Assembly (NCBI GenBank): GCA_017463615.1
Contig: JAFTOU010000055.1
Coordinates: forward strand, 1-32,238
Reading direction: 5' to 3'
Origin: Alistipes sp.
GTDB lineage: Bacteria > Bacteroidota > Bacteroidia > Bacteroidales > Rikenellaceae
Length of the DNA: 32,238 nucleotides
Under the pieces are notes generated by a model. That model made no database searches and was not told the origin of the DNA. It saw only the letters and a program-made list of their open reading frames with translations. A program made the position numbers and the translations under genes. Shown here in pieces: positions 980 through 27,221 of this stretch (its first letter is position 1; the number at the start of each line of letters is the position of its first letter).

Positions 980-2509
980 TTACTTCGTTGGGGTGAAGAC
1001 ATCTATGGCGATAGGACCGAAGTTGCCCTCGGTGTCGTAGCCAACGGCAACGGCGGTGACGGTTTGATTCCATGGGCACTTCTCAAATACGCAAGGGTTC
1101 ATATTTTTGAAGTAGTCGTCGCGGATAAGGTTGTTGAGCATTGTCTGGCGCGGAGTGTCGGTCAGATCACCCATAAAGATAACATTGTAGAAGCCTGCGC
1201 ACTTGGTGTCTGGTGTGACGGTAGAGACGAGCACAGCTTTGCCGTCGCTACCCTCGGAGAATGTACCCTTGACCGAGACTGTACACTCGGCGATATTGTC
1301 CGCCTTAGTGGTAAAGCTCTCGCCCATAACAAACGCTGCGGCAGCCTCTCCGTGGTTATCTATGCAGACAGCCCACGGAATATACTCTGTGCCCTGCTGC
1401 AGACCGTAGATAGTGCCCTCCACGCTAACATCGTCGTAGGAGCTGATAATCTCCAGCGCATCGTATATATTGCCGAAGTCCTGCGCAAATGGAGCGAGTG
1501 ACTCCTTGAGGATATCCTTCATAGCCTCAGCCTCGCCCTTCTCGGCAGTGAGCTTGTTGAAGTACGCCTTCTCTACCGTATGCCAGAAGAATACGGTGTG
1601 CTTTGCCGATGGGGTGACCTTCATATAGGCGCGGTCGTACTCAATACTACTAACCTCAAAGGTGAAGCTGCACGCCGCAGGGTCGCCACCCGACTTGGTG
1701 GTAAATGGCACCTTTGTAACGCCCGTAGTCGCTACGCCACCCTCATAGCCAAAGGCGATAAGGTAGTAGTCTCTGCCAGGTGCGCAGCTGTCAATCACGC
1801 CGCTCTGGTTGCCGGTGTAGATAAACTCCTCAATGTCGCTACGCGCAGCGAGGCAGTGCTTGATAAACTCCGCGTCGGACATCTGGTCTACCAGCGGCTT
1901 GTTCCACGGAATGAGCACATACTGCTCCGCCGCATTTGACGGCTTGATGTCGTACGACACGCCCGTGTAGGTTGTACCTCCCACGCTCAGGTCAAAGACA
2001 TTTGTTGATGGAGCAACCTCGGTGGTGCTGAACTTCTGCACAGCGATATCGGTGGTTATTTTGCCATCCTCGTCTATGCCCATAGCCACGGCGTAGTATA
2101 CCGAGCCAGCCTCCAGACCCGTAAAGCCATAGGAGTCGTCGCCCGACGAGAGTATTCTTTTGAGCACATCCTCCTTGGTCATACTGTTGGAGGTCATAAG
2201 ACCGTTGATAGTATTGTCTATAAAGCGCTGGAAGCCGAACTTGTCGTTATACTCGTTGTAGTAGAGCTCGCGCAGGATGTCAAAGTAGTACTTTGCACTC
2301 TTGTCGTCTGGCGAAACCGATACACGCGCCTCTGTGGCGGTGATATCCAGCACCTCAATGGTAAATGGAGCCTCTGTAGCAGGCTTATCTTCAGGCTGCT
2401 CTGGCTGTGGGTTATTCCCACCTGTAGGGATATTGTCATCGCCACCACACGATACAAAGAGTAGGGTGGTGGTAGCGATTGCAAATGTGAAAAATTGTCT
2501 AAAAGTCAT
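980..2509 (-). CDS. Lipoprotein with repeated fibronectin-like domains, last gene of the steroid-reductase operon
   Basis: A 509-residue predicted lipoprotein. The signal peptide ends in LLFVSC, with the lipid-carrying cysteine at residue 21 followed by GGDD, a pattern often seen on exported lipoproteins of Bacteroidota. The rest is built from about three related beta-rich modules beginning near residues 45 (FTIEVLDITATEARVSV), 280 (FTFEVSSIEYDRAYMKV) and 400 (CTVSVKGTFSEGSDG), each with the alternating pattern of Ig/fibronectin-III-like domains; no catalytic motif is evident. The start lies 10 bases after the stop of the short-chain dehydrogenase and the operon terminator follows the gene, so it is almost certainly co-transcribed with the three redox enzymes. 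A role in binding or presenting their substrate at the cell envelope is my inference; it could equally be unrelated. Confidence 0.85.
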   Translation of the reverse strand: MTFRQFFTFAIATTTLLFVSCGGDDNIPTGGNNPQPEQPEDKPATEAPFTIEVLDITATEARVSVSPDDKSAKYYFDILRELYYNEYNDKFGFQRFIDNTINGLMTSNSMTKEDVLKRILSSGDDSYGFTGLEAGSVYYAVAMGIDEDGKITTDIAVQKFSTTEVAPSTNVFDLSVGGTTYTGVSYDIKPSNAAEQYVLIPWNKPLVDQMSDAEFIKHCLAARSDIEEFIYTGNQSGVIDSCAPGRDYYLIAFGYEGGVATTGVTKVPFTTKSGGDPAACSFTFEVSSIEYDRAYMKVTPSAKHTVFFWHTVEKAYFNKLTAEKGEAEAMKDILKESLAPFAQDFGNIYDALEIISSYDDVSVEGTIYGLQQGTEYIPWAVCIDNHGEAAAAFVMGESFTTKADNIAECTVSVKGTFSEGSDGKAVLVSTVTPDTKCAGFYNVIFMGDLTDTPRQTMLNNLIRDDYFKNMNPCVFEKCPWNQTVTAVAVGYDTEGNFGPIAIDVFTPTK

Positions 2510-2519
2510 ATCTATTTAT

Positions 2520-3326
2520 CTATTTTTGCCACTTCATCGTAAAGTTGCGAATCCAGCGCAGTACAAACATCGGCAGGTTCTCCAGCAGCGGAATAAGCAG
2601 GCGCATCCACCAATCAGGCACTACGCAACGACGCTTCTTCCACAGTGAGTTCAGACCACGACGGGCGCAGAACTTAGGGGTTGAGAGGGCGTGAATGTTG
2701 AGGCCAATCTTCTGCCACCTCTTGCTAAGACCGTAGAGGTCGGTAGCGATACCTGCAGGGCATACGGCGGTAACATAGACCTTCTTGTCCTTTACCTCCT
2801 TGGCAAAGGAGATAGAGAAGGACTTGAGATACGCCTTGCTTGCGCTGTAGAGCGACAGACCTGGCCATGGCATCCAGATGGAGTAGGAGGACATATTGAG
2901 GATATATCCACCGCCACGCTCAGCCATATCGGCAGCAAAGAGCTTGCAGAGCAGGGTGTTGGTAATATCGTGCAGGGTTATGGCCTGCTTGATACGCTCA
3001 GCAGGGGTGTTGAGGATGTCGCAGAACGAGAACATACCCGCGTTGTTAATCAGCACATCTATCGTATGTCCCTCGCTCTTGCACCACTGGTGTAGCTCCT
3101 CGGCGGCAGTCATCGTTGCAAGATTCTTGGTAAGGACGGTAACCTTCACACCCTCCTTCTCTCGTATGTCAGCAGCAACCTGCTCCAGCAACTCGCCATC
3201 GCGGCTAACGACAACAAGGTTATAGCCCAGATGTGCCAGCTGCTCGGCATAACACTGACCAATGCCAGAAGATGCACCCGTAACAAGGGCTGTCTTTGAG
3301 CCCTTAACTATCTGACCGCACTTCAT
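2520..3326 (-). CDS. Short-chain dehydrogenase/reductase, candidate hydroxysteroid dehydrogenase
   Basis: A 268-residue classical SDR. The Rossmann motif TGASSGIG is at 16-23, NNAG at 94-97, and the catalytic triad is Ser147, Tyr160 and Lys164 (YSASK). Arg42 after the second strand (VVSRD) suggests NADP(H) preference. The last 30 residues form a hydrophobic, Trp-rich helix (about 239-262) ending in basic residues, which suggests membrane attachment, in keeping with the membrane-bound partner two genes upstream. The start is one base after the stop of the OYE-family gene. In context the likely job is interconversion of a 3-oxo and a 3-hydroxy group on a steroid or bile acid (3-beta-HSDH-like). 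SDR sequence alone does not give the substrate; general 3-ketoacyl or 17-beta-type reductase activity is the alternative. Confidence 0.85.
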   Translation of the reverse strand: MKCGQIVKGSKTALVTGASSGIGQCYAEQLAHLGYNLVVVSRDGELLEQVAADIREKEGVKVTVLTKNLATMTAAEELHQWCKSEGHTIDVLINNAGMFSFCDILNTPAERIKQAITLHDITNTLLCKLFAADMAERGGGYILNMSSYSIWMPWPGLSLYSASKAYLKSFSISFAKEVKDKKVYVTAVCPAGIATDLYGLSKRWQKIGLNIHALSTPKFCARRGLNSLWKKRRCVVPDWWMRLLIPLLENLPMFVLRWIRNFTMKWQK

Positions 3327-3327
3327 A

Positions 3328-4566
3328 CTACTTTATTTTGCGAAGTTCGCGCCACAGACGCTCTGGAATATGCTCGGTGCAGTTGTGGCAGCACATCATC
3401 TTGTCTGAGTACATGCGAGCGATGCAGTAGTCGCGGTGGTCGCAACCTGCACGGGTTGTAAAGTCGCCAGCCTTCAGCTTGTTGATAAAGGCAGGGTCGT
3501 TAATCAGCGCACGCGCCATCTGTACCATCTCAAAGCCCTCGTCAAGCACCTTCTCAATACCCTCGCGCGACACAAGACCGCCGACATATACCAGTGGGCC
3601 CTTAAGCTCGGCGCGGAACTTCTTGGCATTCTCAAGGAAGAAGCATTCCTCAAAGTCGTAGTCCTTAATCATCCACTGACCAAAGAGCGAAACGACAATC
3701 TTCTGCAGCCACTCGTTCCAACCCATATAGTAACCCATGGTCTTTGTTGGGATGCGACCGCGCATAACAGCCATAGGAGCACGCGAAACGAAACCCGACG
3801 AGAGTACTATGCCATGAACGCCAAACTTCTCAATCTCCTTGGCAATCTCGATGCTCTCAGGTACCTGAATACCACTCTTGAAGCCATCCTCCATATTGTG
3901 CTTCACAAGTACAGCCATATTGCACTTTGCAGCAGCCTCCATAACCTCTGTAAGGCACATCTTCATAAAGCGCATACGGTTCTCCAGCGAGCCGCCAAAC
4001 TCGTCACGACGACGGTTTGTCCATGGCGAGAGGAACTGCGAGATAAGGTAGCCGTGACCTGCGTGTATCTCCACGCTATCAAAGCCAGCCTTGTGAGCAG
4101 TATGAACTGCCGTGCCGAAATCCTTAGCCGTCTGCGCAATCTCTGCGTGACTCATACGGCGGTGGAAGGTAGGGGAGTAGAGGTTAAAACCATTTGAAGC
4201 CGATACGGGGAACGAGCCTGCGGTAGACCAGTGGGTCATATTTCCGCAGTGACCGAGCTGAATACCTACGGCAGCACCCTCGGCGTGTACAGCATCTGTA
4301 ATATCGCGCAACTGAGGTACAATCTCGTCGCGCATCCAGAGCTGAGAGTTGAACGACACTCCGCTACGGTTGATAGATGCGTATGCAAGGGTGGTCATAC
4401 CTACGCCACCGCGAGCAACGCTCACATGGTAATCCTTAAGGTCCTGAGTCGGAGCAAAATCCTTGCCCATACTCTCAAATGCCGCCGAGCGAATAACACG
4501 ATTTCGCAGGGTGACAGGTCCCATTTGATATGGGGTAAACAGTTTTGAATCGTCAAGATTCTTCAT
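3328..4566 (-). CDS. Old Yellow Enzyme family flavin reductase, candidate 3-oxo-delta4-steroid 5-beta-reductase
   Basis: A 412-residue FMN-binding TIM-barrel enzyme of the NADH:flavin oxidoreductase/Old Yellow Enzyme family. The family signature is HAGHGYLISQFLSP at 168-181, followed by the NRR.DEFGGS segment; GIQLGHCGN lies at 101-109, and VYVGG near 327 and MARALINDP near 350 mark the phosphate-binding end of the barrel. It lacks the second FAD/NAD(P) domain of the long 2,4-dienoyl-CoA reductase and BaiCD/BaiH enzymes. A Cys cluster survives at the C-terminus (C375, C381, C392, C393, C396): the C-x11-C part of the usual iron-sulphur motif is present, but the first half is C-x5-C without the middle cysteine. 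Residues 262-310 look like an insertion. It sits 12 bases after the 5-alpha-reductase gene. Reduction of a steroid enone is inferred from that context. Confidence 0.88.
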   Translation of the reverse strand: MKNLDDSKLFTPYQMGPVTLRNRVIRSAAFESMGKDFAPTQDLKDYHVSVARGGVGMTTLAYASINRSGVSFNSQLWMRDEIVPQLRDITDAVHAEGAAVGIQLGHCGNMTHWSTAGSFPVSASNGFNLYSPTFHRRMSHAEIAQTAKDFGTAVHTAHKAGFDSVEIHAGHGYLISQFLSPWTNRRRDEFGGSLENRMRFMKMCLTEVMEAAAKCNMAVLVKHNMEDGFKSGIQVPESIEIAKEIEKFGVHGIVLSSGFVSRAPMAVMRGRIPTKTMGYYMGWNEWLQKIVVSLFGQWMIKDYDFEECFFLENAKKFRAELKGPLVYVGGLVSREGIEKVLDEGFEMVQMARALINDPAFINKLKAGDFTTRAGCDHRDYCIARMYSDKMMCCHNCTEHIPERLWRELRKIK

Positions 4567-4578
4567 ATAGTCAAGTTT

Positions 4579-5349
4579 TTAATAAATAAACGGAATAATG
4601 CGTTTTCTGCCAAGTTTGGTAAACTCCTCGCCGAACTCGCTCTCATAACGCTTGTAGAGCGATGCGGCACGAGGACCGAGGTTGGCAAATGTCCAGAGGG
4701 CAAAGACAGCACCTGCCCACGACCAGCTTGCAATAGCGAAGCCTACCCACTCGGTAAACTCGCCGAAGTAGTTTGCCGAAGAGACAAAGCGGAACATACC
4801 ACCCTTCGGAATATAGTGCTTCGTATCGCCTGGCTTACGCAGGTGACGAATGATATAGTCCGAGTGGAGGTTGATGATAAAACCAGCGAGCCAAATAGCT
4901 GCGCCGATGTAGATGTACGGCTTTGCCATCCAGCCATCGTAGTAACCCTGCTCTGGGGCGAGGTAGAATATCCAACCACCCTGCATCAGTGCATTTAAGG
5001 TGTTGAAAATCATACCCATAAGCATAATGCCGAAAGGCATCTTGGAGTTGCCACGGATAAGGAGCGGGAAGATAAACGAGCGCTGGAAGTAGTGGGTCTG
5101 GAAGATGATAAACAGCACCAAAGGTGCAACCTCAAAGCGCACCTCCGAGAGCCACCAGAGCACCGTCATCGCGATAAATACGGGACACTCCATCAGCACC
5201 CACGCCACGCGGTTTGGCACCGGAAAGCCAAACTTAGGGTTGAACAGGTAGCCATAGCCCGCATCTACAAAGTAGAGTGCGATAAATACCACTACGGCAA
5301 TGGCTGCCATAACGATAAGAAATGTGTTATATGTCGCAAGTGTGAACAT
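4579..5349 (-). CDS. Membrane 3-oxo-5-alpha-steroid 4-dehydrogenase (steroid 5-alpha-reductase, SRD5A family)
   Basis: A 256-residue integral membrane protein with about six or seven hydrophobic segments and clear resemblance to animal steroid 5-alpha-reductases. Landmarks are Glu54 in MECPVF, HYFQRSF at 86-92 (Tyr87 and Arg90), LLIRG at 96-100, HSDYIIRHLRKPGDT at 162-176, the ANYFGEFTEW block at 192-201 (Asn193 and Glu197), the SWSW segment at 208-211, and the IIPFIY C-terminus. These correspond to NADPH- and substrate-contacting residues of the human enzymes. The length equals that of SRD5A1/2 (254-259). The reaction would be NADPH-dependent reduction of a 3-oxo-delta4 steroid or bile acid to the 5-alpha (allo) form in the inner membrane. 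It leads the four-gene operon. Family assignment is firm; the natural substrate is inferred. A related enzyme class (DUF1295) is less likely, given the full RKPGDT and ANYFGE motifs. Confidence 0.9.
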   Translation of the reverse strand: MFTLATYNTFLIVMAAIAVVVFIALYFVDAGYGYLFNPKFGFPVPNRVAWVLMECPVFIAMTVLWWLSEVRFEVAPLVLFIIFQTHYFQRSFIFPLLIRGNSKMPFGIMLMGMIFNTLNALMQGGWIFYLAPEQGYYDGWMAKPYIYIGAAIWLAGFIINLHSDYIIRHLRKPGDTKHYIPKGGMFRFVSSANYFGEFTEWVGFAIASWSWAGAVFALWTFANLGPRAASLYKRYESEFGEEFTKLGRKRIIPFIY

Positions 5350-5399: not shown

Positions 5400-6500
5400 T
5401 TATACATTGAAAAGGAAGTGCATAATATCGCCATCCTGGACAACATACTCCTTGCCCTCAATGCCAATCTTACCAACATCGCGGCAAGCCTTCTCAGAGC
5501 CGAGAGCAACATAGTCCTCATACTTGATAACCTCAGCGCGGATAAAGCCCTTCTCAAAGTCGGTGTGGATAGTACCTGCCGCCTGTGGAGCCTTAGCACC
5601 GCGAACATAGGTCCATGCGCGAGACTCGTCGGCACCAGTGGTGAAGAAGGTCTCAAGGTTGAGTAGGCGATATGCAGCCTTGATAAGGCGGCTTACGCCC
5701 GACTCGGTAAGACCCATATCCTCAAGGAACATCTGGCGCTCCTCGTAGCTCTCCAGCTCGGCGATATCTGCCTCAGTAGCCGCTGCAACGATAAGCATCT
5801 GGGCATTCTCGTCCTTGATAGCCTCTGCAACAGCCTCGGTGTACTTGTTGCCCGTAACGGCGCTCTTCTCGTCTACATTGCACAGATAGAGCACTGGCTT
5901 GTCGGTAAGCAGGTTGAGGTCCTGCATAATCTTGCGCTCCTCCTTGTCAAGCTCTACGGTACGCGCCGAGAGTCCCTGCTCCAGAGCAGCCTTGTAGCGG
6001 AGCAGAATGTCGTACTGGCGCTTTGCAATCTTGTCACCACCAGTCTGAGCCTGCTTTGCAACCTTAGCGATACGGTTCTCTACAGTCTCAAGGTCCTTGA
6101 GCTGCAGCTCGGTGTCAATAACGCCCTTGTCGCGCACTGGGTCTACGCTGCCATCTACATGGGTGATGTTTCCATCCTCAAAGCAACGCAGAACATGGAT
6201 AATAGCGTTTGTGTTACGGATATTTGCAAGGAACTTATTTCCCAGACCCTCGCCCTTAGATGCGCCCTTAACAAGACCTGCGATATCTACAATCTCAATG
6301 GTTGTAGGCACTACGCGCTTAGGTTTATCTATCTCAGCCAGGCGGATAAGACGCTCGTCTGGCACGGTGATAACGCCAACATTTGGTTCAATAGTACAGA
6401 AAGGGAAGTTTGCCGACTGCGCCTTAGCGTTTGACAAACAGTTGAAAAGTGTTGATTTGCCGACATTTGGAAGTCCGACAATACCACATTGTAAAGCCAT
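5400..6500 (-). CDS. ychF: Redox-regulated ATPase YchF (Obg-family P-loop protein)
   Basis: A 366-residue YchF/OLA1 protein. The P-loop GLPNVGKST is at 9-17, the switch II/G3 motif DIAGL at 70-74, and the nucleotide-specificity motif is N206-V-D-E209 (NxxE rather than NKxD), which in this family is linked to ATP rather than GTP use. The C-terminal TGS-like domain runs from about residue 280 (TFFTTGADESRAWT) to the end. It is a cytosolic, ribosome-associated ATPase linked to stress and redox responses in other bacteria. It follows miaB with a gap of 29 bases on the same strand and probably shares its transcript. Full length and intact. Confidence 0.96.
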   Translation of the reverse strand: MALQCGIVGLPNVGKSTLFNCLSNAKAQSANFPFCTIEPNVGVITVPDERLIRLAEIDKPKRVVPTTIEIVDIAGLVKGASKGEGLGNKFLANIRNTNAIIHVLRCFEDGNITHVDGSVDPVRDKGVIDTELQLKDLETVENRIAKVAKQAQTGGDKIAKRQYDILLRYKAALEQGLSARTVELDKEERKIMQDLNLLTDKPVLYLCNVDEKSAVTGNKYTEAVAEAIKDENAQMLIVAAATEADIAELESYEERQMFLEDMGLTESGVSRLIKAAYRLLNLETFFTTGADESRAWTYVRGAKAPQAAGTIHTDFEKGFIRAEVIKYEDYVALGSEKACRDVGKIGIEGKEYVVQDGDIMHFLFNV

Positions 6501-7885: not shown

Positions 7886-8878
7886 TTATATGTTCTGTAT
7901 CTCGTCCTTCTCTGGCAGCGGCTTGAAGCCCTCACCAAAGGTGTCGTACGCATCGGTAACGACGATAAATGCTGTAGGGTCTACCTCACGAATAGTGCTC
8001 TGTACAAGCGGAACATCCTTGTTCGGAACAACGAGGAAAATCATCTCCTTCTCGCTGCCAGAGTACATACCCCTTGATTGGATGTAGGTTGCAGAACGGT
8101 CCAAGTCCTTGAGGATAAACTCCTTGAGCGTCTCGTTGTGCTCGTTGAGGATGATGAAAATCAGCTTGTTGTATGAAGCACCGTTGATGGTATATGCCAA
8201 CACGCGCGAGGTGACATAGATTGTAATGAGCGAGTAGAGCGAGAGCAGCCAACCCTGCGGGTCAGGCTCGCCAGTACCCAAACCAAAGCCGATGACAAGC
8301 AGACCCGAGAGTACCACTACAGAGTCGGCAATAAGTACGGCGTTGGAGAAGCCGATGTGAAAATATTTCTGAATCATCATCGCAATGATGTCCGTGCCAC
8401 CCGTAGTTGCCTGCTGACGAACTACAAGACCTACACCCACGCCGAGGAATACCGAGCCGATAAACGAGGCGAGCATAAGGTGGTCGGAGAGGTCAAGGAT
8501 ACCGCCAAGCATCTGCGCAGGGTCAAGTGCCTGCATCGCCTCCTTAGTAGGGAAGGAGAGGCGAGTGATTAGGTTCATACAGCCTGGGGTGTAGAGCGCC
8601 GCCACGATAGTGCGGCTGCCAAACTTGCTGCCGAAAATCAAGAAAGCGAGTATAAGTAGCGGAATATCAAACATATAGCCGAAAGTTCCGACCTGGATGT
8701 TAGGGAAGATATTGTGCAGGACAATACTTGCGCCATAGATACCACCAGGAACAATGTTATACGGGCTGATGAAGAATACATAGCCAGCAGCCAGCAGTGT
8801 GCAACCCAAGAAGATGAAGAACCAAGAGCTCCACCACTTGAGCGAGAAAACGGGTTGGGTTAATGATTTGATATCCAT
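7886..8878 (-). CDS. YitT family membrane protein (DUF161 plus DUF2179)
   Basis: A 330-residue protein with a basic/aromatic N-terminus and about five or six membrane segments between residues 18 and 215 (for example WWSWFFIFLGCTLLAAGYVF), followed by a soluble C-terminal domain of about 80 residues (NEHNETLKEFILKDLDRSATY onwards) that matches the DUF2179 half of YitT-family proteins. GGIYGASIVLHN at about 47-58 and the RQQATTGGTDIIAMM segment in the second half are the repeated signature of the family. The function is not established; the family is often listed as a putative transporter. It heads the yitT-miaB-ychF cluster. Confidence 0.9.
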   Translation of the reverse strand: MDIKSLTQPVFSLKWWSSWFFIFLGCTLLAAGYVFFISPYNIVPGGIYGASIVLHNIFPNIQVGTFGYMFDIPLLILAFLIFGSKFGSRTIVAALYTPGCMNLITRLSFPTKEAMQALDPAQMLGGILDLSDHLMLASFIGSVFLGVGVGLVVRQQATTGGTDIIAMMIQKYFHIGFSNAVLIADSVVVLSGLLVIGFGLGTGEPDPQGWLLSLYSLITIYVTSRVLAYTINGASYNKLIFIILNEHNETLKEFILKDLDRSATYIQSRGMYSGSEKEMIFLVVPNKDVPLVQSTIREVDPTAFIVVTDAYDTFGEGFKPLPEKDEIQNI

Positions 8879-8916
8879 ACAGAATCAGTTATTTGTAATA
8901 ATCCACAATTAGCGCC

Positions 8917-8947
8917 CAAAGATACGAAATTTTATCTAAAGATAAAA
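8917..8947 (-). promoter_or_regulatory. -7 element and adjacent palindrome upstream of the YitT-family gene
   Basis: TATCTTTG on the minus strand (8917-8924) is a perfect TAnnTTTG, 38 bases before the ATG at 8878. Immediately upstream is the palindrome TTTTATCTAAAGATAAAA (8930-8947), between the -7 element and where a -33 element should be. It could be an operator or the terminator hairpin of the MFS gene ending at 8964. No clear TTTG is seen. Confidence 0.45.
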
Positions 8948-8963
8948 GCCTTTTTGAAATATT

Positions 8964-10166
8964 CTATTTCTCGTAGTAGGATTTGTCCAAGCCTAAGGCG
9001 AAATCGTTGCGGTTGAGCAGGGCGATGATGGTGATAATGGCGGCAACGGCGGCGTTGAGTGCAAAGCCGAAGGTGTGGGACGAAGTGTGTGCGATTTTGC
9101 GGGCGAAGTCGATGATAAACGGGCAGAGGATGATGGCGATATAGTTGGCTGCCATGACGACAGAGAGCGCCTGAGTGGCGAGTTGTGGCGGAGCGATAAT
9201 TGCCGCCTTGTCGTAGATAAGGGGCTGCATAACACCGTAGCCTAAGCCCGTAAGGACGATGCCGAGCATAAGCATCGCGGGTGTCTTAAATATCGCAAGG
9301 CAGAGCAGACCCACTGCGAGGAGTAGCGAGCAAATAGCGTTTGTGTAGGAGCGCGTAAAGGCGATAATTCTGTTCAAAAACAGACCGGGCAGCATAATGG
9401 CGAGGAAGAAGAGCGAGATGCTAACACCTGCAAGTTGCTGTCGGATATGGTACTTCTCAAAGAGGAAGGCTGTGTCAAAGGTGACCACCAAGCTGGCGTA
9501 GGTGATGACGAAGTAGAAGAGCGTCAGCACCGCCAAGTGGCGACGGTTGATACTGCTCTGGCGGTACTGGTCGCTCTGGCGAGGCTCTGGGGCAGGGCGG
9601 TTGTTCCTCAGCGCAAGGCACAGCAGCAGCGACACCCCCGGCAGGAGGTAGACCAGAAAGGAGAGGTGCCAATTTATATCGGCAACATAGCCCGTAAGAG
9701 CCGTTGCACCGACAAGGGTAAGGTTGTTTATTGCCGAGCTATAACCGAGCTGCTTGACACGCGCATTGCCCGTAAAATACTCCACCACAAGACCCGTAGA
9801 GAGCGGGATAATCATACCCGCGCCGATACCAAGTATGCAGCTGATAACAATTAGCAGGCTCATACTTTTAGCCAGCAGGCAAGCCACTCCGCAGAGGGTA
9901 AAAATTGCCAAGCCAGCATAGAGCATCGGCAGCTTATTGCGCCCCGTAGCAAGGCGACCAGCGAGGAGCACGAAGGGGATAATGAGTAGGCTCGGTAGCG
10001 ATGTAAGCATCTGAATTTCAAGGTCTGACGCCTTAGGGAAGATGTTGTTCATATCTCCCAAGATGGGCGAGACGGCAAGCCCTGGGAGTGATGTTACAGC
10101 CGAGACCGACCAGATGGCAATAAGTGTAAGGAGCGAGATAGTCCCCTTTCCGGTGTTGATTTTCAT
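8964..10166 (-). CDS. Major facilitator superfamily transporter
   Basis: A 400-residue, very hydrophobic protein with about 12 membrane segments. The loop between helices 2 and 3 has the MFS signature in the form LAGRLATGRNKLPML (about residues 68-82), and ILGIGAGMIIPLSTGLVVEYF (about 115-135) fits helices 4-5. A hydrophilic loop near 192-208 (NNRPAPEPRQSDQYRQSS) separates the two halves. The substrate cannot be told from the sequence. The gene seems to be transcribed alone: a terminator precedes it and a palindrome follows it. The similarity is that of drug/metabolite efflux-type MFS members, but this is only general. Confidence 0.88.
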   Translation of the reverse strand: MKINTGKGTISLLTLIAIWSVSAVTSLPGLAVSPILGDMNNIFPKASDLEIQMLTSLPSLLIIPFVLLAGRLATGRNKLPMLYAGLAIFTLCGVACLLAKSMSLLIVISCILGIGAGMIIPLSTGLVVEYFTGNARVKQLGYSSAINNLTLVGATALTGYVADINWHLSFLVYLLPGVSLLLCLALRNNRPAPEPRQSDQYRQSSINRRHLAVLTLFYFVITYASLVVTFDTAFLFEKYHIRQQLAGVSISLFFLAIMLPGLFLNRIIAFTRSYTNAICSLLLAVGLLCLAIFKTPAMLMLGIVLTGLGYGVMQPLIYDKAAIIAPPQLATQALSVVMAANYIAIILCPFIIDFARKIAHTSSHTFGFALNAAVAAIITIIALLNRNDFALGLDKSYYEK

Positions 10167-10202
10167 AGTTGCATAGTTTTAGTTATTAACTACGCAAAAC
10201 AA

Positions 10203-10227
10203 AAAGAGTGCCTTGTGAGCACTCTTT
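10203..10227 (-). terminator. Terminator of the nusB-yajC-TSCPD operon
   Basis: AAAGAGTGC (10203-10211) pairs perfectly with GCACTCTTT (10219-10227) over a seven-base loop, and on the minus strand the stem runs into TTGTTTTG. It lies 20 bases beyond the stop of the TSCPD gene. Confidence 0.85.
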
Positions 10228-10247
10228 ATCGTTAGGGGAAGCAGACT

Positions 10248-10505
10248 CTACTCGTTTGCAATCTTGCGCAGAGCCTTAGCAAGTTGGTCGGGACACGATG
10301 TTCCGCGACCAGCGCAATCTATACCCTCAAGCCTTGCGATAGCATCCTCAACCTTCATACCAGCGACAAGGGCAGCAATACCCTGAGTATTTCCGCCACA
10401 TCCGCCCACAAACTGTACGCGGGTGATTGTATCGCCGTCAATCTCGGTGAGAATAGCCTGCGAGCAGGTGCCCGAGGTGTAGTATATATTGCTCTTTACT
10501 GCCAT
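10248..10505 (-). CDS. TSCPD-domain protein (TIGR03905 family)
   Basis: An 85-residue protein with the CGGNTQGI segment (about 36-43) and the TSCPD motif (69-73) that names the family; conserved cysteines are C14, C36, C64 and C71. The isolated TSCPD domain is also found at the C-terminus of class II ribonucleotide reductases, where it is thought to bind metal or nucleic acid; the role of the stand-alone protein is not known. Its ATG overlaps the yajC stop by one base (TAATG), which suggests translational coupling. Length is usual for the family. Confidence 0.9.
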   Translation of the reverse strand: MAVKSNIYYTSGTCSQAILTEIDGDTITRVQFVGGCGGNTQGIAALVAGMKVEDAIARLEGIDCAGRGTSCPDQLAKALRKIANE

Positions 10506-12975: not shown

Positions 12976-14166
12976 CTACTCTACATAGAGGACAAGACCC
13001 TTGAGGTACTCGCCCTCGGGGTGGTAGATGTTGATAGGGTGGTCTGTAGGCTGTGTGAGCTGATGGAGTATGCGCACCTTGCGCCCTGCGATAGCCGCTG
13101 CAGTAAATACGGTTGTGCGGAAGAGCTCCTTAGAGACCGCCTGCGAGCAGGAGAAGGTGAATAGTATACCACCGCTCTTAATCTGCGATAACGCCCTGGC
13201 ATTGAGGCGCTTATATCCCTGCATAGCGTTTCCGAGCACCTTGTGATGCTTTGCAAAAGCGGGTGGGTCAAGGATAATCATATCGTACTTGTCGCCGATG
13301 TTCTTCAGGTACTCCACCGCATCGCAAGCTATGGAGCTATGTGGTGCACCCTCGCCAAAGTTGAGCGCTATGTTGGCATCTGCCAGACGGACAGCCTTCT
13401 CCGAAGCATCTATGGAGCAGACCTCCTTAGCTCCGCCCGCCAGCGCATAGACCGAGAAGCCGCCAGTGTAGCAGAAGGTGTTGAGTACCGTCCTGCCTGC
13501 GGCATAGCGACCTACAAGCTCGCGGTTGAAACGCTGGTCAATGAAGAAGCCGGTCTTCTGACCCTCCTCCCAGTTTACAAGGAACTTGTGCCCATTCTCC
13601 AGCACTACATTGTCCTTGTCTGCCGAGCCGTAGAGATAGCCATCTACAGGGTTGAGGTTCGCCTTGAAAGGCACAGTCTGCGCACTCTTGTCGTAGACGG
13701 CGGTAATCTTGCCATCAAAGACGGCAACTATAGCCTCTGCAATCTGCTTGCGCGAGCGATACATACCCACCGAGTGGCACTGCACCACAGCCGTAGAGCC
13801 GTAGATATCTACCACAAGCCCTGGCAGGTTGTCGCCCTCGCCGTGCACCAGACGGTAGCAGGTGGTCTTCTCACACTCCGTAAGGGCAAGCGTGCGACGC
13901 ACATCGTAGGCGCTGGCAATGCGACTCTGCCACCACGCATCATCTATCGGCGTCTGCTCAAAGCTGAGCACACGCACAGCTATAGAGCCAATCTGATAGT
14001 GACCGCGAGCCAAAAACTCGCCCGAAGCTGAGTATACATCAACAATCTCGCCCTCGGCAAGCTCGCCGCTGCACTCTATATTATATATCGCGCCCGAGAA
14101 TATCCACGGGTGACAACGCTTGAGAGACTCCTCCTTACCGCGCCTAAGAGTAATTTTTGCTATCAT
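12976..14166 (-). CDS. Class I rRNA large-subunit methyltransferase, RlmI/YccW type, with N-terminal PUA domain
   Basis: A 396-residue SAM-dependent methyltransferase. A PUA domain (1-75, RGKEESLKRCHPWIFSGAI) leads to the Rossmann domain with motif I NTFCYTGGF at 229-237 and motif IV DPPAF at 300-304; the cysteine in FTFSCSQ near 350 is the expected catalytic one. It probably makes a 5-methylcytosine in 23S rRNA, like RlmI. I chose the ATG at 14166 over an in-frame one at 14247 because the protein then begins at the usual PUA start (MIAKITLRRG) and because a near-perfect promoter lies at 14183-14214, inside the longer version. Confidence 0.92.
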   Translation of the reverse strand: MIAKITLRRGKEESLKRCHPWIFSGAIYNIECSGELAEGEIVDVYSASGEFLARGHYQIGSIAVRVLSFEQTPIDDAWWQSRIASAYDVRRTLALTECEKTTCYRLVHGEGDNLPGLVVDIYGSTAVVQCHSVGMYRSRKQIAEAIVAVFDGKITAVYDKSAQTVPFKANLNPVDGYLYGSADKDNVVLENGHKFLVNWEEGQKTGFFIDQRFNRELVGRYAAGRTVLNTFCYTGGFSVYALAGGAKEVCSIDASEKAVRLADANIALNFGEGAPHSSIACDAVEYLKNIGDKYDMIILDPPAFAKHHKVLGNAMQGYKRLNARALSQIKSGGILFTFSCSQAVSKELFRTTVFTAAAIAGRKVRILHQLTQPTDHPINIYHPEGEYLKGLVLYVE

Positions 14167-14182
14167 ATAACTATATTTGTCA

Positions 14183-14214
14183 CAAAGGTAGTGTTTTTTG
14201 TTCGGACAGCCAAA
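14183..14214 (-). promoter_or_regulatory. Bacteroidota-type promoter of the RlmI-like gene and nuclease
   Basis: On the minus strand TTTG (14211-14214), 20 bases, then TACCTTTG (14183-14190). The match is exact and it decides the start codon at 14166, 16 bases further on. Confidence 0.78.
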
Positions 14215-14268
14215 TTTTAACCGTCGGATGCGAACAAAACCGAACATACCCGAACGCCCCCTTGTTTG

Positions 14269-18657: not shown

Positions 18658-21600
18658 TTAGATTACTCCAAAATACTTCTCGAAGAACCCTTTCAACTTC
18701 TCAATCACGGTCTTCTTTTTCTCCTGTCGGTTGCCACCACCGAAGCGGGACATTGCAGGTAGTATCTTGTCAATATCGGTGCCTGTTGTGCGTATTGCTC
18801 CATCACGAAAAGCGTTCTCCACAAATCTTGCGGTCTCGTCTGCTTTGAGGTTCTCGCTTGCGATAATCTCGTCCAAGTCATCCTGCTTACGCTGCTTCAC
18901 ATACGCCTCCCACGCCGCATCAATATCAGTATCGGTATTGACGCTCGCCACGAAGTCCTCAATGAGTTCCTTCTTGCTTCTCAACTGCATACTCGCACTT
19001 ACTGCCTTGCTGATATTGACGAGTATCTCCTTATTCTTGCAGTTGCTCTCGTGGTAGTTCTTCACCAGAAGCAGGATATAGTCAATGTTAATCTCTACCT
19101 GCCTTATCAGTTCAGTCTCAAATATGATGTCATCATTGACCACTTCCTTCTCGCCTTTACCTCTCTTTCTCCACTTATCTTTCAGGTCAAGGTAGTGGCT
19201 CTGATAGTCCTGCATCTGTCCATCTGTGAGCAGTTGCTGACCCTCAAACTGGTCAAACGACTGCAATACATTTATGGACTTCAACAGACTACCAAAGAGG
19301 GTGATGAAGCGTCTCTCCTCCTCTTCGCCCATAGGTATGTATCCATCAGGGTATTGCTTTTGGAGTTCTTCAACAAGTTCTTTATATCCATAACAATGCT
19401 TGCCATTCTCGGCATCATACCCCTCGTAGTATGACTTAAAGTCTTTGAGCAGAACAATGCTCGCCGCATCCTTATCACCGAACAGAGCAATCGCATCATC
19501 GGTCTCTTGTTGGAGGTTGCGAAAACATACGATATTACCGAAGGTCTTCACCGAGTTGAGTATTCGGTTGGTGCGACTGTATGCCTGTATCAATCCGTGC
19601 TGTTTAAGGTTCTTATCTACAAACAGAGTGTTAAGCGTGGTAGCATCAAATCCCGTCAAGAACATATTGACCACGATGAGCAAATCCACCTGACGGTTCT
19701 TCATTCGCAGCGATAGGTCTTTGTAGTAGTTCTGAAACTTATCGCTTGAAGTGTCGTAGTTGGTTGAGAACATCTGGTTGTAATCCTTGATAGCACCCTC
19801 CAAGAAGTCTCTGCTTGGTTGGTCAAGGTTGGTAGTGCTCTCGGGGTTCTCCTCAACGAGTATGCCGTCTATCTCCTCCTCGTTTGCTCCGTATGAGTAG
19901 ATGGTGGCAATCTTCAATCGCTGTGCTTCGGGCAGATGTGCCTGCTGTGCCTTAAACTCGTTGTAATATGCCTTCGCCATCTCAATAGAGGCAACGGCGA
20001 ACATAGCGTTGAAACCCGCCAGTTTCTGCGTCATCTTGCTCTCCTTGACCTCGCCCTTCTTTGCCTTTGCCATCTGCTCAATGTTCTGGGCAACACGATA
20101 GGAGTAGTATGATGACCTCTTGGTCTTCTGGTCAAAGTGCTCCAAGATATACTTCACCACCTCCTTCACTCGTTCAGGGGCAGACATAATACGCTCTCGG
20201 TCAATCGCCGAAATCTGCTTGTCCAAGATATCCTCCTTCGTTTTGAGGGTATTCACATAGTCTATGCGAAACGGCAATACATTCTCATCGTTGATAGCAT
20301 CCACAATGGTGTAGGTGTGGAGTTTATCGCCGAATGCCTGCTGCGTGGTTTTAAGTCTCATATCGCCACCGCTGCCTGCGTTCTGTGCGAAGATAGGTGT
20401 GCCCGTGAAACCGAAGATATGGTATTTCTTGAAGTTCTTGGTTATGGCGTTGTGCATCTCACCAAAATTGCTTCGGTGGCACTCGTCAAATATAATCACT
20501 ACCCTCTGCTGAAAGATAGGATGGTTCTTGTTCTTCTGGATGAAGATGGATAGTTTCTGTATGGTTGTGATGATAATACGATAGTCGTGATAACCGCCGT
20601 TCTTATCTCTGTTTTCAAGTTGTCGTTGAAGGACGGAGGTAGATGTGTTGCTGTCCGCTGCACCCTCCTCAAATCGGTTATACTCCTTCATCGTTTGGTA
20701 GTCAAGGTCTTTTCTATCCACCACGAAGAGCACCTTGTCTATGTAGTCAAGGCGTGAAGCGAGTTGAGCAGTCTTGAACGAGGTGAGTGTCTTACCCGAA
20801 CCTGTCGTATGCCATATATAACCACCGCCTTCGGTCTTGCCGTATTGCTTGTAGTTGTGGGCAACCTCTATGCGAGAGATTATACGCTCCGTTGCTGCAA
20901 TCTGATATGGACGCATCACGAGCAACATCCTTTCGCTCGTAAATACACAATACTTGGTGAGGATGTTTATCAGCGTATGTTTGGCGAAGAATGTGCGTGT
21001 AAAGTCAATCAGGTCGTTGATTGTCTTGTTGTTGCTGTCAGTCCAAAACGATGAGAACTCAAACGAGTTGCTCGTCTTCTTACCCTTGTTCTTGCTTCGC
21101 TCCTGCTCCTTGATATGGTTGAAGCGAGTAGAGTTGGAGTAATACTTTGTGTTGGTGCCGTTGGATATAACGAAAATCTGCACATACTCATACAGTCCGC
21201 TGCCCGCCCAAAAACTATCTCGCTGATAGCGGTCAATCTGATTGAACGCCTCTTTGAGTTGAACACCTCTTCGCTTCAACTCTATATGCACAAGCGGCAG
21301 TCCATTGACGAGTATGGAAACATCATAGCGGGCATCGTGGTTGCCCTGCTCCTCCTCGTATTGGTTGATGACTTGTAGGTAGTTGTTGTGAATGTTTCGC
21401 TTGTCTATCAGATAGATGTTCTTGGTCTCGCCCGTGTCTCTTTTGAGGACTTGGATATGGTCTTCCTGTATCTTGGCGGTCTTTGCCTCAATGCCTTCGT
21501 TCTGGTTGGCAATCACATCATTGAAGAAACGCTCCCACTCGCTGTCGGTGAAGGTGTAGTCGTTAAGTCTCTGCAACTGAACACGGAGGTTATCCACAAG

Positions 21601-21774
21601 GTCTTTCTCCGTGTGGATAGCGAGGTATTCATATCCCTGCTCGGTGAGGTTCTTAATCAACTCCTGCTCCAATTGTGCTTCGGTCTGGTATTTCTCGCTT
21701 GTGCGATACGCAGACTGATAGTCGCTCACAATCGTGTAGTTCTCGTTCTCTGCAATAATGTTGTATTGTGCCAT
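18658..21774 (-). CDS. hsdR: Type I restriction enzyme R subunit HsdR
   Basis: A 1038-residue motor/nuclease subunit. The N-terminal PD-(D/E)xK nuclease has Asp151 (RYDVSILVNG) and E165-L-K167. The translocase follows: Walker A TTGSGKT at 323-329, DECH box at 430-433, TGTP at 457-460, and the second RecA fold with LLIVVNMFLTGFDATTLNTLFVDK and a QAYSRTNRI motif VI. The C-terminal third contacts HsdM. It cuts unmodified DNA at a distance after ATP-driven translocation. It follows hsdS with a three-base gap and is the last gene of hsdMSR. No truncation or frameshift is seen, so restriction should be active if HsdS is in frame. Confidence 0.95.
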   Translation of the reverse strand: MAQYNIIAENENYTIVSDYQSAYRTSEKYQTEAQLEQELIKNLTEQGYEYLAIHTEKDLVDNLRVQLQRLNDYTFTDSEWERFFNDVIANQNEGIEAKTAKIQEDHIQVLKRDTGETKNIYLIDKRNIHNNYLQVINQYEEEQGNHDARYDVSILVNGLPLVHIELKRRGVQLKEAFNQIDRYQRDSFWAGSGLYEYVQIFVISNGTNTKYYSNSTRFNHIKEQERSKNKGKKTSNSFEFSSFWTDSNNKTINDLIDFTRTFFAKHTLINILTKYCVFTSERMLLVMRPYQIAATERIISRIEVAHNYKQYGKTEGGGYIWHTTGSGKTLTSFKTAQLASRLDYIDKVLFVVDRKDLDYQTMKEYNRFEEGAADSNTSTSVLQRQLENRDKNGGYHDYRIIITTIQKLSIFIQKNKNHPIFQQRVVIIFDECHRSNFGEMHNAITKNFKKYHIFGFTGTPIFAQNAGSGGDMRLKTTQQAFGDKLHTYTIVDAINDENVLPFRIDYVNTLKTKEDILDKQISAIDRERIMSAPERVKEVVKYILEHFDQKTKRSSYYSYRVAQNIEQMAKAKKGEVKESKMTQKLAGFNAMFAVASIEMAKAYYNEFKAQQAHLPEAQRLKIATIYSYGANEEEIDGILVEENPESTTNLDQPSRDFLEGAIKDYNQMFSTNYDTSSDKFQNYYKDLSLRMKNRQVDLLIVVNMFLTGFDATTLNTLFVDKNLKQHGLIQAYSRTNRILNSVKTFGNIVCFRNLQQETDDAIALFGDKDAASIVLLKDFKSYYEGYDAENGKHCYGYKELVEELQKQYPDGYIPMGEEEERRFITLFGSLLKSINVLQSFDQFEGQQLLTDGQMQDYQSHYLDLKDKWRKRGKGEKEVVNDDIIFETELIRQVEINIDYILLLVKNYHESNCKNKEILVNISKAVSASMQLRSKKELIEDFVASVNTDTDIDAAWEAYVKQRKQDDLDEIIASENLKADETARFVENAFRDGAIRTTGTDIDKILPAMSRFGGGNRQEKKKTVIEKLKGFFEKYFGVI

Positions 21775-21777
21775 ATC

Positions 21778-22983
21778 TTATGCCTTTTGCTTGAAGGTCA
21801 GTAATTGGTCTCTGTAATACTCGTATTGTTTTCGTCTTGCCTCAATCTCGGTGGGTAGTCCTGCGGTGATATCGGTGGTCAAGGTGCTAAATCTATCTAA
21901 TATATCCACTATCCTCTGTTGCTCTGCGAGAGGTGGGACGGGTATTGGGCAATTGACCATCATCGGTCTTCTGATAGAAACAACAGATGAAGAAACGGAG
22001 TTCCTCATTATGTAGTCGTAGAATGTTGCTCCAATGTAGTAATAAACATACCGTGGCAATACATCCTTCTCATTTGGGACAATTCTATATGCTCTTTGGT
22101 GTAATGCATATTTGCCCTTAACAAAATGAAAAACTTTTCCAACACCTGCACCATCACCTGCTGTAATAATTGCTGTTTCGTCGTAGTCGTAGTCATTAAG
22201 ATATAAGACTTCTGAACCTCTTGTGTAAAAAGGATATTGTCCTTCGGTTAGTCCATCTTGTGTGTTATGAGAACCTGTGCCCAATTCACACACATCACCA
22301 AGTTTCTTCCATTCAACGCTTACGGCATACCCCCCCCCATTTAAGTCGTTGAATGACAGCAATTTATCACGATAATAGTTGTATTGTTGTAATCTTTTTT
22401 GCAGTTCTGCTTGCAATTCTGCTTGCAATTCTGCAAAATTATCTAATATCCTTACTATCTCCTCCTGAACAGGCAGCGGTGGGACAGGGATAGAATGAGT
22501 TCTTAAATCCTTTTGTCTAATACCTTTGAGGGTTGAACCTGTTGCGTGAGAATTAAAATATGTTTGTGTTTCATTACCTTCAAGTATGTATTTCAGATAT
22601 TTTGGACAAACAATTTCTTTATTTGGCTTCAACAAAAGAACACTTTCACTGCAATTCCAATTATCAACAGGTATATCAACTATCGCAACTTTACCAATTG
22701 TTCCGATGCCAGATAGCAAAATATCGTCAATCTCCAATCTTGACCTATTCTGTATAATATTGACAGCATCAGGTGTAATTTTATCTGTTTTATCGCTAAA
22801 AACAATCTTTCCCGTAGTCATTTCTTTTACGGTAAGGTAATGGCAAGTTGCTCCTTTGCCATTAAGAGTGAAGTTTTTTCTTGGGTTCAAACCAGAGCAT
22901 ATGCTTTTTGTGATACTTTCTATGCTCTTATACTCAACTCCATCGGGGCAATGCTGCTGAATAAGTTCTTCTAATCTGCTCAT
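21778..22983 (-). CDS. hsdS: Type I specificity subunit HsdS with two internal simple repeats
   Basis: A 401-residue two-half specificity subunit. TRD1 covers about 1-165, the central conserved helix about 171-212 (PVQEEIVRILDNFAELQAEL ... YYRDKLLSF), TRD2 about 220-345, and the C-terminal conserved helix about 346-401 (PLAEQQRIVDILDRF ... EYYRDQLLTF). The ATG at 22983 (MSRLEELIQQHCPDGVEYK) is the usual start and avoids overlap with hsdM; an upstream ATG at 23007 would overlap it by 20 bases. Two repeats stand out: three 12-bp units encoding the spacer (residues 183-194) and a G9 run encoding Gly216-218. With one G fewer the frame stops after GGGMP, with one more after GGGVCRKR, giving a half-subunit of about 220 residues. 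Confidence 0.93.
   Translation of the reverse strand: MSRLEELIQQHCPDGVEYKSIESITKSICSGLNPRKNFTLNGKGATCHYLTVKEMTTGKIVFSDKTDKITPDAVNIIQNRSRLEIDDILLSGIGTIGKVAIVDIPVDNWNCSESVLLLKPNKEIVCPKYLKYILEGNETQTYFNSHATGSTLKGIRQKDLRTHSIPVPPLPVQEEIVRILDNFAELQAELQAELQKRLQQYNYYRDKLLSFNDLNGGGYAVSVEWKKLGDVCELGTGSHNTQDGLTEGQYPFYTRGSEVLYLNDYDYDETAIITAGDGAGVGKVFHFVKGKYALHQRAYRIVPNEKDVLPRYVYYYIGATFYDYIMRNSVSSSVVSIRRPMMVNCPIPVPPLAEQQRIVDILDRFSTLTTDITAGLPTEIEARRKQYEYYRDQLLTFKQKA
22330..22338 (-). repeat. Homopolymer G9 tract in hsdS (C9 on the plus strand)
   Basis: Nine consecutive G in the coding sense encode Gly216-Gly218, exactly at the junction between the central conserved helix and TRD2. Both shifted frames reach a stop within nine codons. 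A pure G tract of this length inside a coding region is a classic slipped-strand phase-variation site. Confidence 0.9.
22399..22434 (-). repeat. Three 12-bp tandem units encoding the LQAE spacer of HsdS
   Basis: Plus-strand units at 22399-22410, 22411-22422 and 22423-22434 (TTGCARTTCTGC, the first differing by one base) read as AELQ-AELQ-AELQ on the coding strand. They sit in the central spacer helix that sets the distance between the two recognised half-sites. Confidence 0.9.
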
Positions 22984-22987
22984 AGTG

Positions 22988-24550
22988 TTATCCTTCAATA
23001 TCAGCAATAATCTTATCTATCTCTGCTCGCAACACATTCTCTCGTGCCACGATCTGGGCAATCTCCTCGTTGAGTTTCACGATATCAACCTGCTCACGGG
23101 TGTCCTCCTGCTCAACATAGGTAGAGACAGAGAGGTTGTAGTCGTTCTCCGCAACCACACCGTTCGCCACCAACTTGCAGGTGTAATCAACATCCTTTCT
23201 CTCGGCGAAGTAATCAACGATATGCTGGATGTTCTCTGGGGTGAGTTTATTGTTGTTGGTAATCTTCACGCACTCACGGCTCGCATCAATGAAGAGAGTA
23301 GAGTTGTCCTTCTTGTTCTTCTTCAATACCATTATACAGGTAGCGATTTGGGTTCCAAAGAAGAGGTTATCAGGGAGTTGGATGATGCAATCAATATAGT
23401 TGTTGTCAATCAGATACTGGCGTATCTTCTTCTCCGCTCCGCCACGATACATAATGCCTGGGAAGCAGACTATGCTCGCCGTGCCGTTCGTTGCCAACCA
23501 CGCAAGCGAGTGCATAATGAACGCAAGGTCTGCCTTTGACTTTGGTGCAAGCACGCCCGCAGGAGCATAGCGAGGGTCGTTGATAAGGGTAATATCGTCA
23601 TCGCCCTTCCACTTGATAGAGTATGGAGGGTTAGAGACAATCACCTCAAATGGTTCATCGTCCCAATGCTGTGGCGAGAGAAGTGTATCCTCGCAAGCGA
23701 TATTGAACTTGTCGTAGTCAATGTCGTGCAAGAACATATTGATACGGCAGAGGTTGTAGGTGGTAAGGTTAATCTCCTGACCATAGAAACCCTGACGCAC
23801 ATTGTCCTTGCCGAGTATCTTTGCCGCCTTCAAGAGCAGCGAACCCGAACCGCAAGCAGGGTCATAGACCTTATTGACCTCGCTCTTGCCGAGAGTTGCC
23901 AAACGGGTGAGGAGTTCGCTCACCTCCTGTGGTGTGTAATACTCGCCACCGCTCTTACCTGCATTGCTCGCATACATACCCATCAGGTATTCGTAGGCAT
24001 CACCAAAAGCATCAATCGTATTGTCTTGGTAGTCGCCGAGGTTCATCTGCTGAATACCACGAAGGAGTTTCACCAATTTCTCATTTCGCTTGATGACGGT
24101 TGCTCCCAACTTATTTGAATTGACATCAACATCGGCAAACAGACCCTTGAAGTCGTCCTCGCTGTCGGTGCCCTTTGCACTCGCCTCAATAGAGGTGAAA
24201 ATCTTCTCCAAAGTCTCGTTAAGGTTGGCATCCTTGTCGCACACCTTGCATACATTGCAGAAGAGTTGGCTTGGCAAGATGAAGAAACCCTTCACGCCCA
24301 CCATCTCCTCACGGATGCACTCGGCAGTGGCATCGTCCAAAGTGGCGTAGTCAAAATCGGTGTTGCCAGTATCCCACTCGCCCTTGTTGATATAGTTGGT
24401 GATGTTCTCGCTGATGTAGCGATAGAAGAGCATACCGAGAATGTATGCCTTGAAGTCCCATCCATCTACCGCACCTCGCATCTCATCGGCGATTGCCCAT
24501 ATTGTTCTGTGGAGTTCTGCACGCTCCATCTCCTTCTTATTCTCTGCCAT
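22988..24550 (-). CDS. hsdM: Type I DNA methyltransferase subunit HsdM
   Basis: A 520-residue N6-adenine methyltransferase subunit. The N-terminal helical domain (about 1-170) contains WDFKAYILGMLFYRYISENI. SAM motif I is DPACGSGSLLL at 230-240 and catalytic motif IV is N307-P-P-Y310. GGEYYTPQEV at 201-210 and the C-terminal coiled region (NEEIAQIVARENVLRAEIDKII) are typical. It pairs with HsdS to methylate the target and with HsdR to restrict. It has its own promoter and is first in the operon, with hsdS starting four bases after its stop. Confidence 0.96.
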   Translation of the reverse strand: MAENKKEMERAELHRTIWAIADEMRGAVDGWDFKAYILGMLFYRYISENITNYINKGEWDTGNTDFDYATLDDATAECIREEMVGVKGFFILPSQLFCNVCKVCDKDANLNETLEKIFTSIEASAKGTDSEDDFKGLFADVDVNSNKLGATVIKRNEKLVKLLRGIQQMNLGDYQDNTIDAFGDAYEYLMGMYASNAGKSGGEYYTPQEVSELLTRLATLGKSEVNKVYDPACGSGSLLLKAAKILGKDNVRQGFYGQEINLTTYNLCRINMFLHDIDYDKFNIACEDTLLSPQHWDDEPFEVIVSNPPYSIKWKGDDDITLINDPRYAPAGVLAPKSKADLAFIMHSLAWLATNGTASIVCFPGIMYRGGAEKKIRQYLIDNNYIDCIIQLPDNLFFGTQIATCIMVLKKNKKDNSTLFIDASRECVKITNNNKLTPENIQHIVDYFAERKDVDYTCKLVANGVVAENDYNLSVSTYVEQEDTREQVDIVKLNEEIAQIVARENVLRAEIDKIIADIEG

Positions 24551-25508: not shown

Positions 25509-25553
25509 ACCTAAATAATAATTATTTGTATATAAAGTATTTATGCGAATTGG

Positions 25554-27185: not shown

Positions 27186-27221
27186 TACTTTATTATATTA
27201 TATATATCACATCTCAATCCA

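Follow-up and report, generated by a model that had tools for sequence, protein, structure and literature searches.

A candidate steroid A-ring reduction operon in Alistipes and the two dehydrogenase lineages found at the third gene of such clusters

A gene cluster described in gut Bacteroidetes acts on bile acids in three steps, in which a 5-beta-reductase (5BR) yields 3-oxo-delta4-lithocholic acid (3-oxo-delta4-LCA), a 5-alpha-reductase (5AR) converts this to 3-oxo-alloLCA, and a 3-beta-hydroxysteroid dehydrogenase (3-beta-HSDH) produces isoalloLCA, with Parabacteroides merdae and Bacteroides dorei named as carriers (PMC12916643). A Bacteroidetes cluster converting 3-oxo-lithocholate to isoallolithocholate is also reported in PMC12697870, the cluster is described again in PMC9645264, all three enzymes are placed in Alistipes by PMC11792504, and a table in PMC12789469 lists a 5-alpha-reductase for Alistipes sp. 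Clusters of this sort have already been described in gut Bacteroidetes and named for Alistipes. The isoalloLCA that gut Bacteroidetes make is credited with promotion of regulatory T cells and inhibition of C. difficile (PMC12916643, PMC11792504). Here we analyze a three-gene locus of this kind on an Alistipes sp. contig (JAFTOU010000055.1, assembly GCA_017463615.1), the whole 32,238 nucleotides of which are referred to below as the window.

The three genes lie on the minus strand, separated by gaps of 12 and 1 bases. They encode, in order, 5AR (4579..5349), a predicted SRD5A-family 3-oxo-delta4-steroid 5-alpha-reductase and membrane protein of 256 amino acids (aa); an Old Yellow Enzyme (OYE)-family flavoenzyme (3328..4566; 412 aa), a candidate steroid 5-beta-reductase or delta4-dehydrogenase; and a short-chain dehydrogenase/reductase (SDR; 2520..3326; 268 aa), a candidate 3-oxo-steroid reductase acting at C3. 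An earlier note on this DNA had described a compact operon of three redox families, and the open reading frames (ORFs), strand and coordinates bore this out, as did the Pfam matches of 5AR (PF02544, Steroid_dh, 147.8 bits; cut-off 22.6), the OYE (PF00724, Oxidored_FMN, 191.9 bits) and the SDR (PF00106, adh_short, 143.7 bits). Its observation that these are the three classes of the published cluster also holds, and Alistipes is named in two of the papers above (PMC11792504, PMC12789469).

We consider it quite likely that the locus is a steroid A-ring reduction operon, on the basis of the protein families, predicted folds, conserved catalytic and cofactor residues, gene order, and presence in most genomes of the genus. 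From these we infer the reactions and their directions: the OYE would move steroids between 5-beta-3-oxo and 3-oxo-delta4 forms, the membrane-bound 5AR would use NADPH to turn 3-oxo-delta4 steroids into 5-alpha-3-oxo ('allo', flat) products, and the SDR would convert the C3 ketone to a hydroxyl on one or the other face, such that bent 5-beta steroids would end up as flat 5-alpha steroids. The substrates are most likely unconjugated secondary bile acids of the hindgut.

Both sequence and predicted fold identify the first gene product as a real SRD5A-family protein, in agreement with the earlier note. In phmmer searches it scored 187 bits against PbSRD5A (7c83) and 146 bits against human SRD5A2 (7bw1), compared with 32 bits for a very-long-chain enoyl-CoA reductase, and its predicted model (pLDDT 89.4) superposed on 7c83 and 7bw1 with TM scores of 0.88/0.90 and 0.85/0.89; these two were the only structural matches with E <= 0.001, the next having an E of 0.035. 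The crystallised SRD5A enzymes are described as having a Q-E-Y active-site motif, the Glu and Tyr of which hold the steroid C3 ketone (PMC7815742). Glu54 (human Glu57; Met53-Glu54 at 5188..5193, minus strand, corresponding to human Gln56-Glu57) and the putative catalytic Tyr87 (human Tyr91; HYFQR motif at 5080..5094, minus strand) were present in 81/81 aligned sequences. Among the NADPH residues N160, D164, R171, N193, E197, R227 and Y235, six were likewise found in 81/81, and Y235 in 80 with a gap in the remaining sequence. The eighth position, His231, is not conserved, being Leu (63) or Ile (16) in 79/81; an H231A substitution gave no significant drop in activity (PMC7815742). The alignment with human SRD5A2 that the earlier note had proposed accordingly matched Glu57, Tyr91 and 7/8 NADPH residues. 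Its claim of a "full set" of 5AR landmarks is slightly too strong, as it stands for HYFQR (residues 86-90), RKPGDT (171-176) and ANYFGE (192-197) and not for the Q-E-Y Gln, human Gln56, a feature of the crystallised enzymes that lies outside the family model and that is replaced by Met in 81/81 5ARs.

The OYE has PF00724 as its sole Pfam match and lacks a C-terminal FAD/NAD(P)H domain. The best structural matches of its predicted model (pLDDT 88.8) were iron-sulfur (Fe-S) flavoproteins, namely trimethylamine dehydrogenase, 2-naphthoyl-CoA reductase and 2,4-dienoyl-CoA reductase, and the aligned length was 359-374 residues with solved Fe-S flavoproteins versus 319-332 with one-domain YqjM-type OYEs. 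Beyond residue 395 the model aligned solely with Fe-S flavoproteins among the 50 structures listed. Conservation and structural alignment single out a candidate metal or Fe-S site in this tail, Cys375-x-His377-x3-Cys381-x10-Cys392 (3391..3444, minus strand), with the three Cys present in 75/75 sequences that reach the tail and His377 in 72/75. The Cys spacing differs from the 4Fe-4S pattern of 2,4-dienoyl-CoA reductase. On the BaiCD NCBIfam model (642 positions) the OYE scores 182 of the required 825 bits. By family and modelled fold an OYE of this type could act as a steroid 5-beta-reductase or delta4-dehydrogenase, which leaves the earlier note's assignment to the 5-beta-reductase class plausible. 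A gut 5-beta-reductase tree excluded homologues shorter than 500 aa (PMC12238238), so that an OYE of this type, at 412 aa, would be missed there. One PF00724 protein and one 5AR copy were found in the window genome (2.38 Mb, 93% complete; the window is its contig 34), and no OYE relative was confirmed in viral contigs.

To place the locus among its relatives, we collected loci from named records that have exact 8-residue words in common with the window 5AR (116 stretches with 105 relatives, of which the best 80 were kept), a selection that makes these 80 named loci lean towards close kin. An OYE lies downstream of 5AR in 75 of the 80, within 183 bases in 73 of these, and the nearest loci are Alistipes or Rikenellaceae metagenome-assembled genomes, several of them from ruminant hindgut (goat caecum, sheep caecum, cattle colon). 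Across 61 genomes of the genus, counted after 24 weak PF02544 rows (E > 1e-20) had been dropped, 5AR was present in 52, the OYE in 52, both in 51 and neither in eight. The OYE sits just downstream of 5AR on the same strand in 50/61; the 51st genome has the pair on different contigs, and in the one 5AR-only and the one OYE-only genome the gene sits at a contig end. The 5AR-OYE order is not chance. Of 40 genomes from other families of the order, four had both genes (adjacent in three) and two had 5AR alone. Three wider scans were limited to 6, 4 and 4 scored candidates per genome and may miss weak members: in 395 genomes of the phylum, six of which belong to the window's order, the OYE (E <= 1e-80) was found in three, all of that order and all beside 5AR, and 5AR in eight; and the OYE was found in 65 of 393 genomes of the order. 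In these samples, the 5AR-OYE pair is a feature of some Bacteroidales and not of Bacteroidota at large. Gene order across Bacteroidales, a comparison raised in the earlier note, is thus kept for 5AR and the OYE and varies at the third gene, where one SDR (SDR1, the window type), another (SDR2), both or neither may be found.

SDR1 carries the classical SDR motifs (TGxxxGxG, Asn-Ala-Gly, Ser-Tyr-Lys), and in a 30-sequence alignment G23, A96, G97, S147, Y160 and K164 were invariant while T16, G17, G21, N94 and S146 were conserved in at least 90%. Alignments used members picked for spread, the window counted (40/76 OYEs, 42/81 5ARs, 30/62 SDR1s and 14/16 SDR2s). Among the best 25 of its 211 matches SDR1 reached no NCBIfam cut-off, and the matches listed for SDR1 and SDR2 contained no specific NCBIfam family for either, the nearest to SDR2 being PRK06197/PRK05854, below cut-off. 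The earlier note had placed the window SDR in the class of the published 3-beta-HSDH. We examined this using Phocaeicola massiliensis (OY726067.1) as a stand-in for the published producers, being of the same genus as "Bacteroides dorei" (now Phocaeicola dorei); it was one of two named records matched in a search of plasmid records, the other being Nocardia. Its locus reads 5AR-OYE-SDR2, with SDR2 the only SDR in the stretch seen, and identity to the window is 56% for 5AR and 60% for the OYE versus 25% for the third gene. The 3-beta-HSDH label can therefore not be transferred to the window SDR by homology, and that part of the earlier note is not supported. Profile scores separate the two SDRs in the same way: members scored 336-427 (SDR1) or 314-397 (SDR2) against the profile of their own type and no more than 74 against that of the other type, with the window's FabG at 95 on the SDR1 profile (the profiles were built from the sequences then scored, except for P. 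massiliensis and FabG). SDR2 was not found in the window genome, where the best score was 55 bits, the same level that the SDR1 of the window reached, versus at least 314 for real members. Instead of a single conserved enzyme, the third gene of these clusters encodes members of two separate SDR lineages among the relatives.

Within the stretches examined, SDR1 occurs in 61 of the 80 named loci, SDR2 in 16 and both in 15. For the order sample we surveyed 1,500 bases downstream of the OYE in the 30 best of the 65 OYE genomes, the window included; 3 had SDR1 alone, 8 had SDR2 alone, 14 had the two together and 5 had neither, two of these five (L113, L116) coming from the window's own family; three stretches (L108, L115, L118) end early. 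Combined, 29/105 loci with an OYE hold both SDRs. SDR2 is the next gene downstream after SDR1 or after the OYE in L041, L043, L044, L049, L050, L054, L070, L121 (P. massiliensis) and others. On an OYE tree of 106 rows, of a quick kind with 25/102 inner branches open, the SDR labels require 10 changes compared with 49 when they are shuffled. One branch (support 98) unites ten SDR2-only loci with one that ends early, and another (support 100) unites 33 SDR1-only rows, including the window, with one that ends early. A simple reading of these patterns would start from clusters with both SDRs, of which different lineages may have kept different ones. We found no published account of the SDR split or of the OYE anatomy, with one search aimed at the OYE, none aimed at the split and most subscription literature outside our scope.

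The stretches examined in L032, L037, L038 and L039 hold a 5AR without an OYE, and in L037 the 5AR sits between ORFs that by eye resemble MiaB and cytidylate kinase. In L033 the operon is split by two ORFs between the OYE and the SDR (8305-10465), the first of them DNA methyltransferase-like by eye. A contig listed under Lachnospiraceae (L040) holds a 5AR-OYE-SDR1-SDR2 cluster of Bacteroidales type, the OYE of which groups in the tree with a Bacteroidales genome; this reflects either a binning error or a transfer. L064 includes a stretch of ambiguous bases, and two loci (L023, L030) are incomplete.

What the two SDR lineages do at C3 bears on the product of these clusters. It is close to an even proposition, if slightly short of one, that the function is the known one throughout, including 3-beta-HSDH activity of the window SDR, with SDR1 and SDR2 as interchangeable 3-beta-HSDHs. 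In the loci seen, Alistipes-type clusters hold SDR1 only and Bacteroidaceae-type clusters SDR2 only, each usually beside the OYE, which speaks for this; however, the presence of both in 29/105 OYE loci is difficult to reconcile with identical roles, and by profile score SDR1 and SDR2 are no closer than SDR1 and FabG. More speculatively, and with the balance tilted against it, the C3 step may be performed by two SDR lineages that stand side by side in many Bacteroidales and have been differentially lost (Alistipes having SDR1 only, Bacteroidaceae and kin SDR2 only), and the 5BR would be a shortened Fe-S flavoenzyme exchanging electrons with a separate carrier instead of NAD(P)H. If the two SDRs act on opposite faces of C3, the Alistipes end product would differ from that of Bacteroides-type clusters, and clusters with both SDRs could invert C3 as well as C5.

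A number of observations weigh against bile-acid, or even steroid, A-ring reduction. Substitutions of the Gln that is Met here (Q56A/L) inactivated human SRD5A2 (PMC7815742), an objection softened by the finding that Met is common to 5/5 non-Bacteroidales Bacteroidota relatives; judging by the alignments, Met looks like an ordinary state in these bacteria. In the same paper PbSRD5A had no detectable activity on testosterone, so that steroid choice in this family appears narrow and hard to predict. None of the solved OYE relatives listed is a steroid enzyme by name, the solved relatives of SDR1 are headed by general reductases with 17beta-hydroxysteroid dehydrogenases further down, and 18/105 OYE loci have no SDR in the stretch examined, three of them ending early. 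A search for choloylglycine hydrolase (PF02275) found none in the 93% complete window genome, which would then rely on others to free bile acids; bile salt hydrolase, once considered as support for bile acids, was dropped on this result. Finally, in 5/80 loci a group of ORFs lies directly upstream of 5AR (L056 5250-5987, L067 5026-5970, L068 3047-3793, L071 5258-5986 and L074 5251-5997), of which the three tested (L056, L068, L071) are acyl-acyl carrier protein thioesterases (PF01643); these five loci have no SDR in the stretch examined, and the group hints at lipid chemistry in that lineage. Together with the status of the OYE as the only PF00724 protein found in the genome, which makes a general role possible, and the CoA-thioester reductases among its Fe-S relatives, the thioesterase-group ORFs would fit an account in which the double bonds reduced by the enzymes are those of other lipids (acyl chains, isoprenoids), the steroid reading being an artefact of how the families are named. 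We regard this as improbable, given the gap between the enoyl-CoA reductase and steroid reductase scores of 5AR, the confinement of its structural matches with E <= 0.001 to steroid 5-alpha-reductases, the invariance of the two residues, Tyr and Glu, by which the C3 ketone of the steroid is held, and the lack of an adjoining thioesterase gene in the window cluster.

A different account keeps the A-ring chemistry and replaces bile acids by sterols, plant sterols or steroid hormones as the main substrates. The missing bile salt hydrolase is consistent with it, as are the in-vitro reduction of progesterone by PbSRD5A, the closest solved 5AR relative (PMC7815742), the recovery of 5AR and OYE relatives from forestomach (L049 omasum, L050 rumen, L051 reticulum, L054 omasum), and unpublished data, quoted in PMC8468837, that ascribe 5-beta-reductase-like genes to Bacteroides sp. 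D8, a cholesterol-reducing strain close to B. dorei. However, the activity published for the Bacteroidetes clusters concerns bile acids, no cholesterol reduction was seen in the B. dorei type strain (PMC8468837), and the four forestomach loci represent one lineage, to be counted once, in an environment whose microbes transform added bile acids; forestomach origin was for these two reasons rejected as proof of a non-bile-acid substrate. We consider sterols or hormones as main substrates possible but rather doubtful, and retain unconjugated secondary bile acids as the most likely ones. When bile acids were incubated with rumen contents, allocholic acid (alloCA, a 5-alpha form) and 3beta-CA appeared as new products (PMC11193847), and Alistipes was higher in the bile-acid group of that study. 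The 5AR/OYE pair would explain the allo product, making operons of this type candidates for the origin of alloCA and 3beta-CA. The 15 bile acid enzymes named in the accessible portions of PMC11193847, which also tabulates 82 KEGG entries, and of PMC9750977, a dairy-cow survey, include no 5-alpha-reductase.

The transcription unit may be longer than the three genes. A lipoprotein-like ORF (by eye; 980..2509, minus strand), without a Pfam match, starts 10 bases downstream of the SDR and is possibly the last gene, and a YchF GTPase gene (PF06071, 128.2 bits; 5400..6500, minus strand) lies 50 bases upstream of 5AR as a neighbour outside the proposed function, with a MiaB-like radical-SAM TRAM gene also upstream on the same strand. 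YchF is found in 14/80 named loci, at a median of 1 kb upstream of 5AR. A 12-pair terminator-like stem follows the lipoprotein-like ORF at 958-931; since a scan for such stems found 8 versus 6.0 expected by chance, a count that does not exceed chance, the transcript limits are not fixed by it.

Elsewhere in the window, the R and M subunits of a type I restriction-modification system were identified by Pfam at 18658-24550 (minus strand), and the gene between the two probably encodes, judging by eye, the specificity subunit. Region 24699-31201 contains a serine resolvase (28559-29212) and a tyrosine integrase (29870-31201), both by Pfam, preceded by three ORFs without Pfam match (24699-28027), a combination at the contig end that suggests a mobile element. 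The longest ORF at 12976-14247 (minus strand) begins upstream of a second ATG at 14166, and its PUA-methyltransferase match starts soon after 14166, leaving its start uncertain.

Predicting the producers of particular bile acid isomers from genomes needs a correct reading of the third gene, and the SDR swap described here shows that it may be a mistake to label all clusters of this kind as isoalloLCA producers. This analysis adds two points to the known cluster, namely the split history of its third enzyme and the unusual build of its OYE. Compared with the 5BR-5AR-3-beta-HSDH cluster of Bacteroidetes, the window has the same three enzyme classes, with 5AR and the OYE adjacent, but its third gene is SDR1, where P. 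massiliensis, of a published producer's genus, has SDR2. Its 5AR agrees with PbSRD5A and human SRD5A2 in fold, in the catalytic Glu and Tyr and in 7/8 NADPH residues, and differs from them in the Met that replaces the Q-E-Y Gln and in the Leu or Ile at the His231 position. The reaction proposed for it, from a 3-oxo-delta4 bile acid to an allo product, is also that of BaiP/BaiJ, which are, however, Firmicutes enzymes set apart from the membrane-associated Bacteroidetes 5-alpha-reductases (PMC9645264). With BaiCD, the gut steroid 5-beta-reductases and other Fe-S flavoenzymes, the window OYE has in common the barrel and the tail that follows it, whereas BaiCD-type enzymes carry an FAD/NAD(P)H domain and the window OYE does not.

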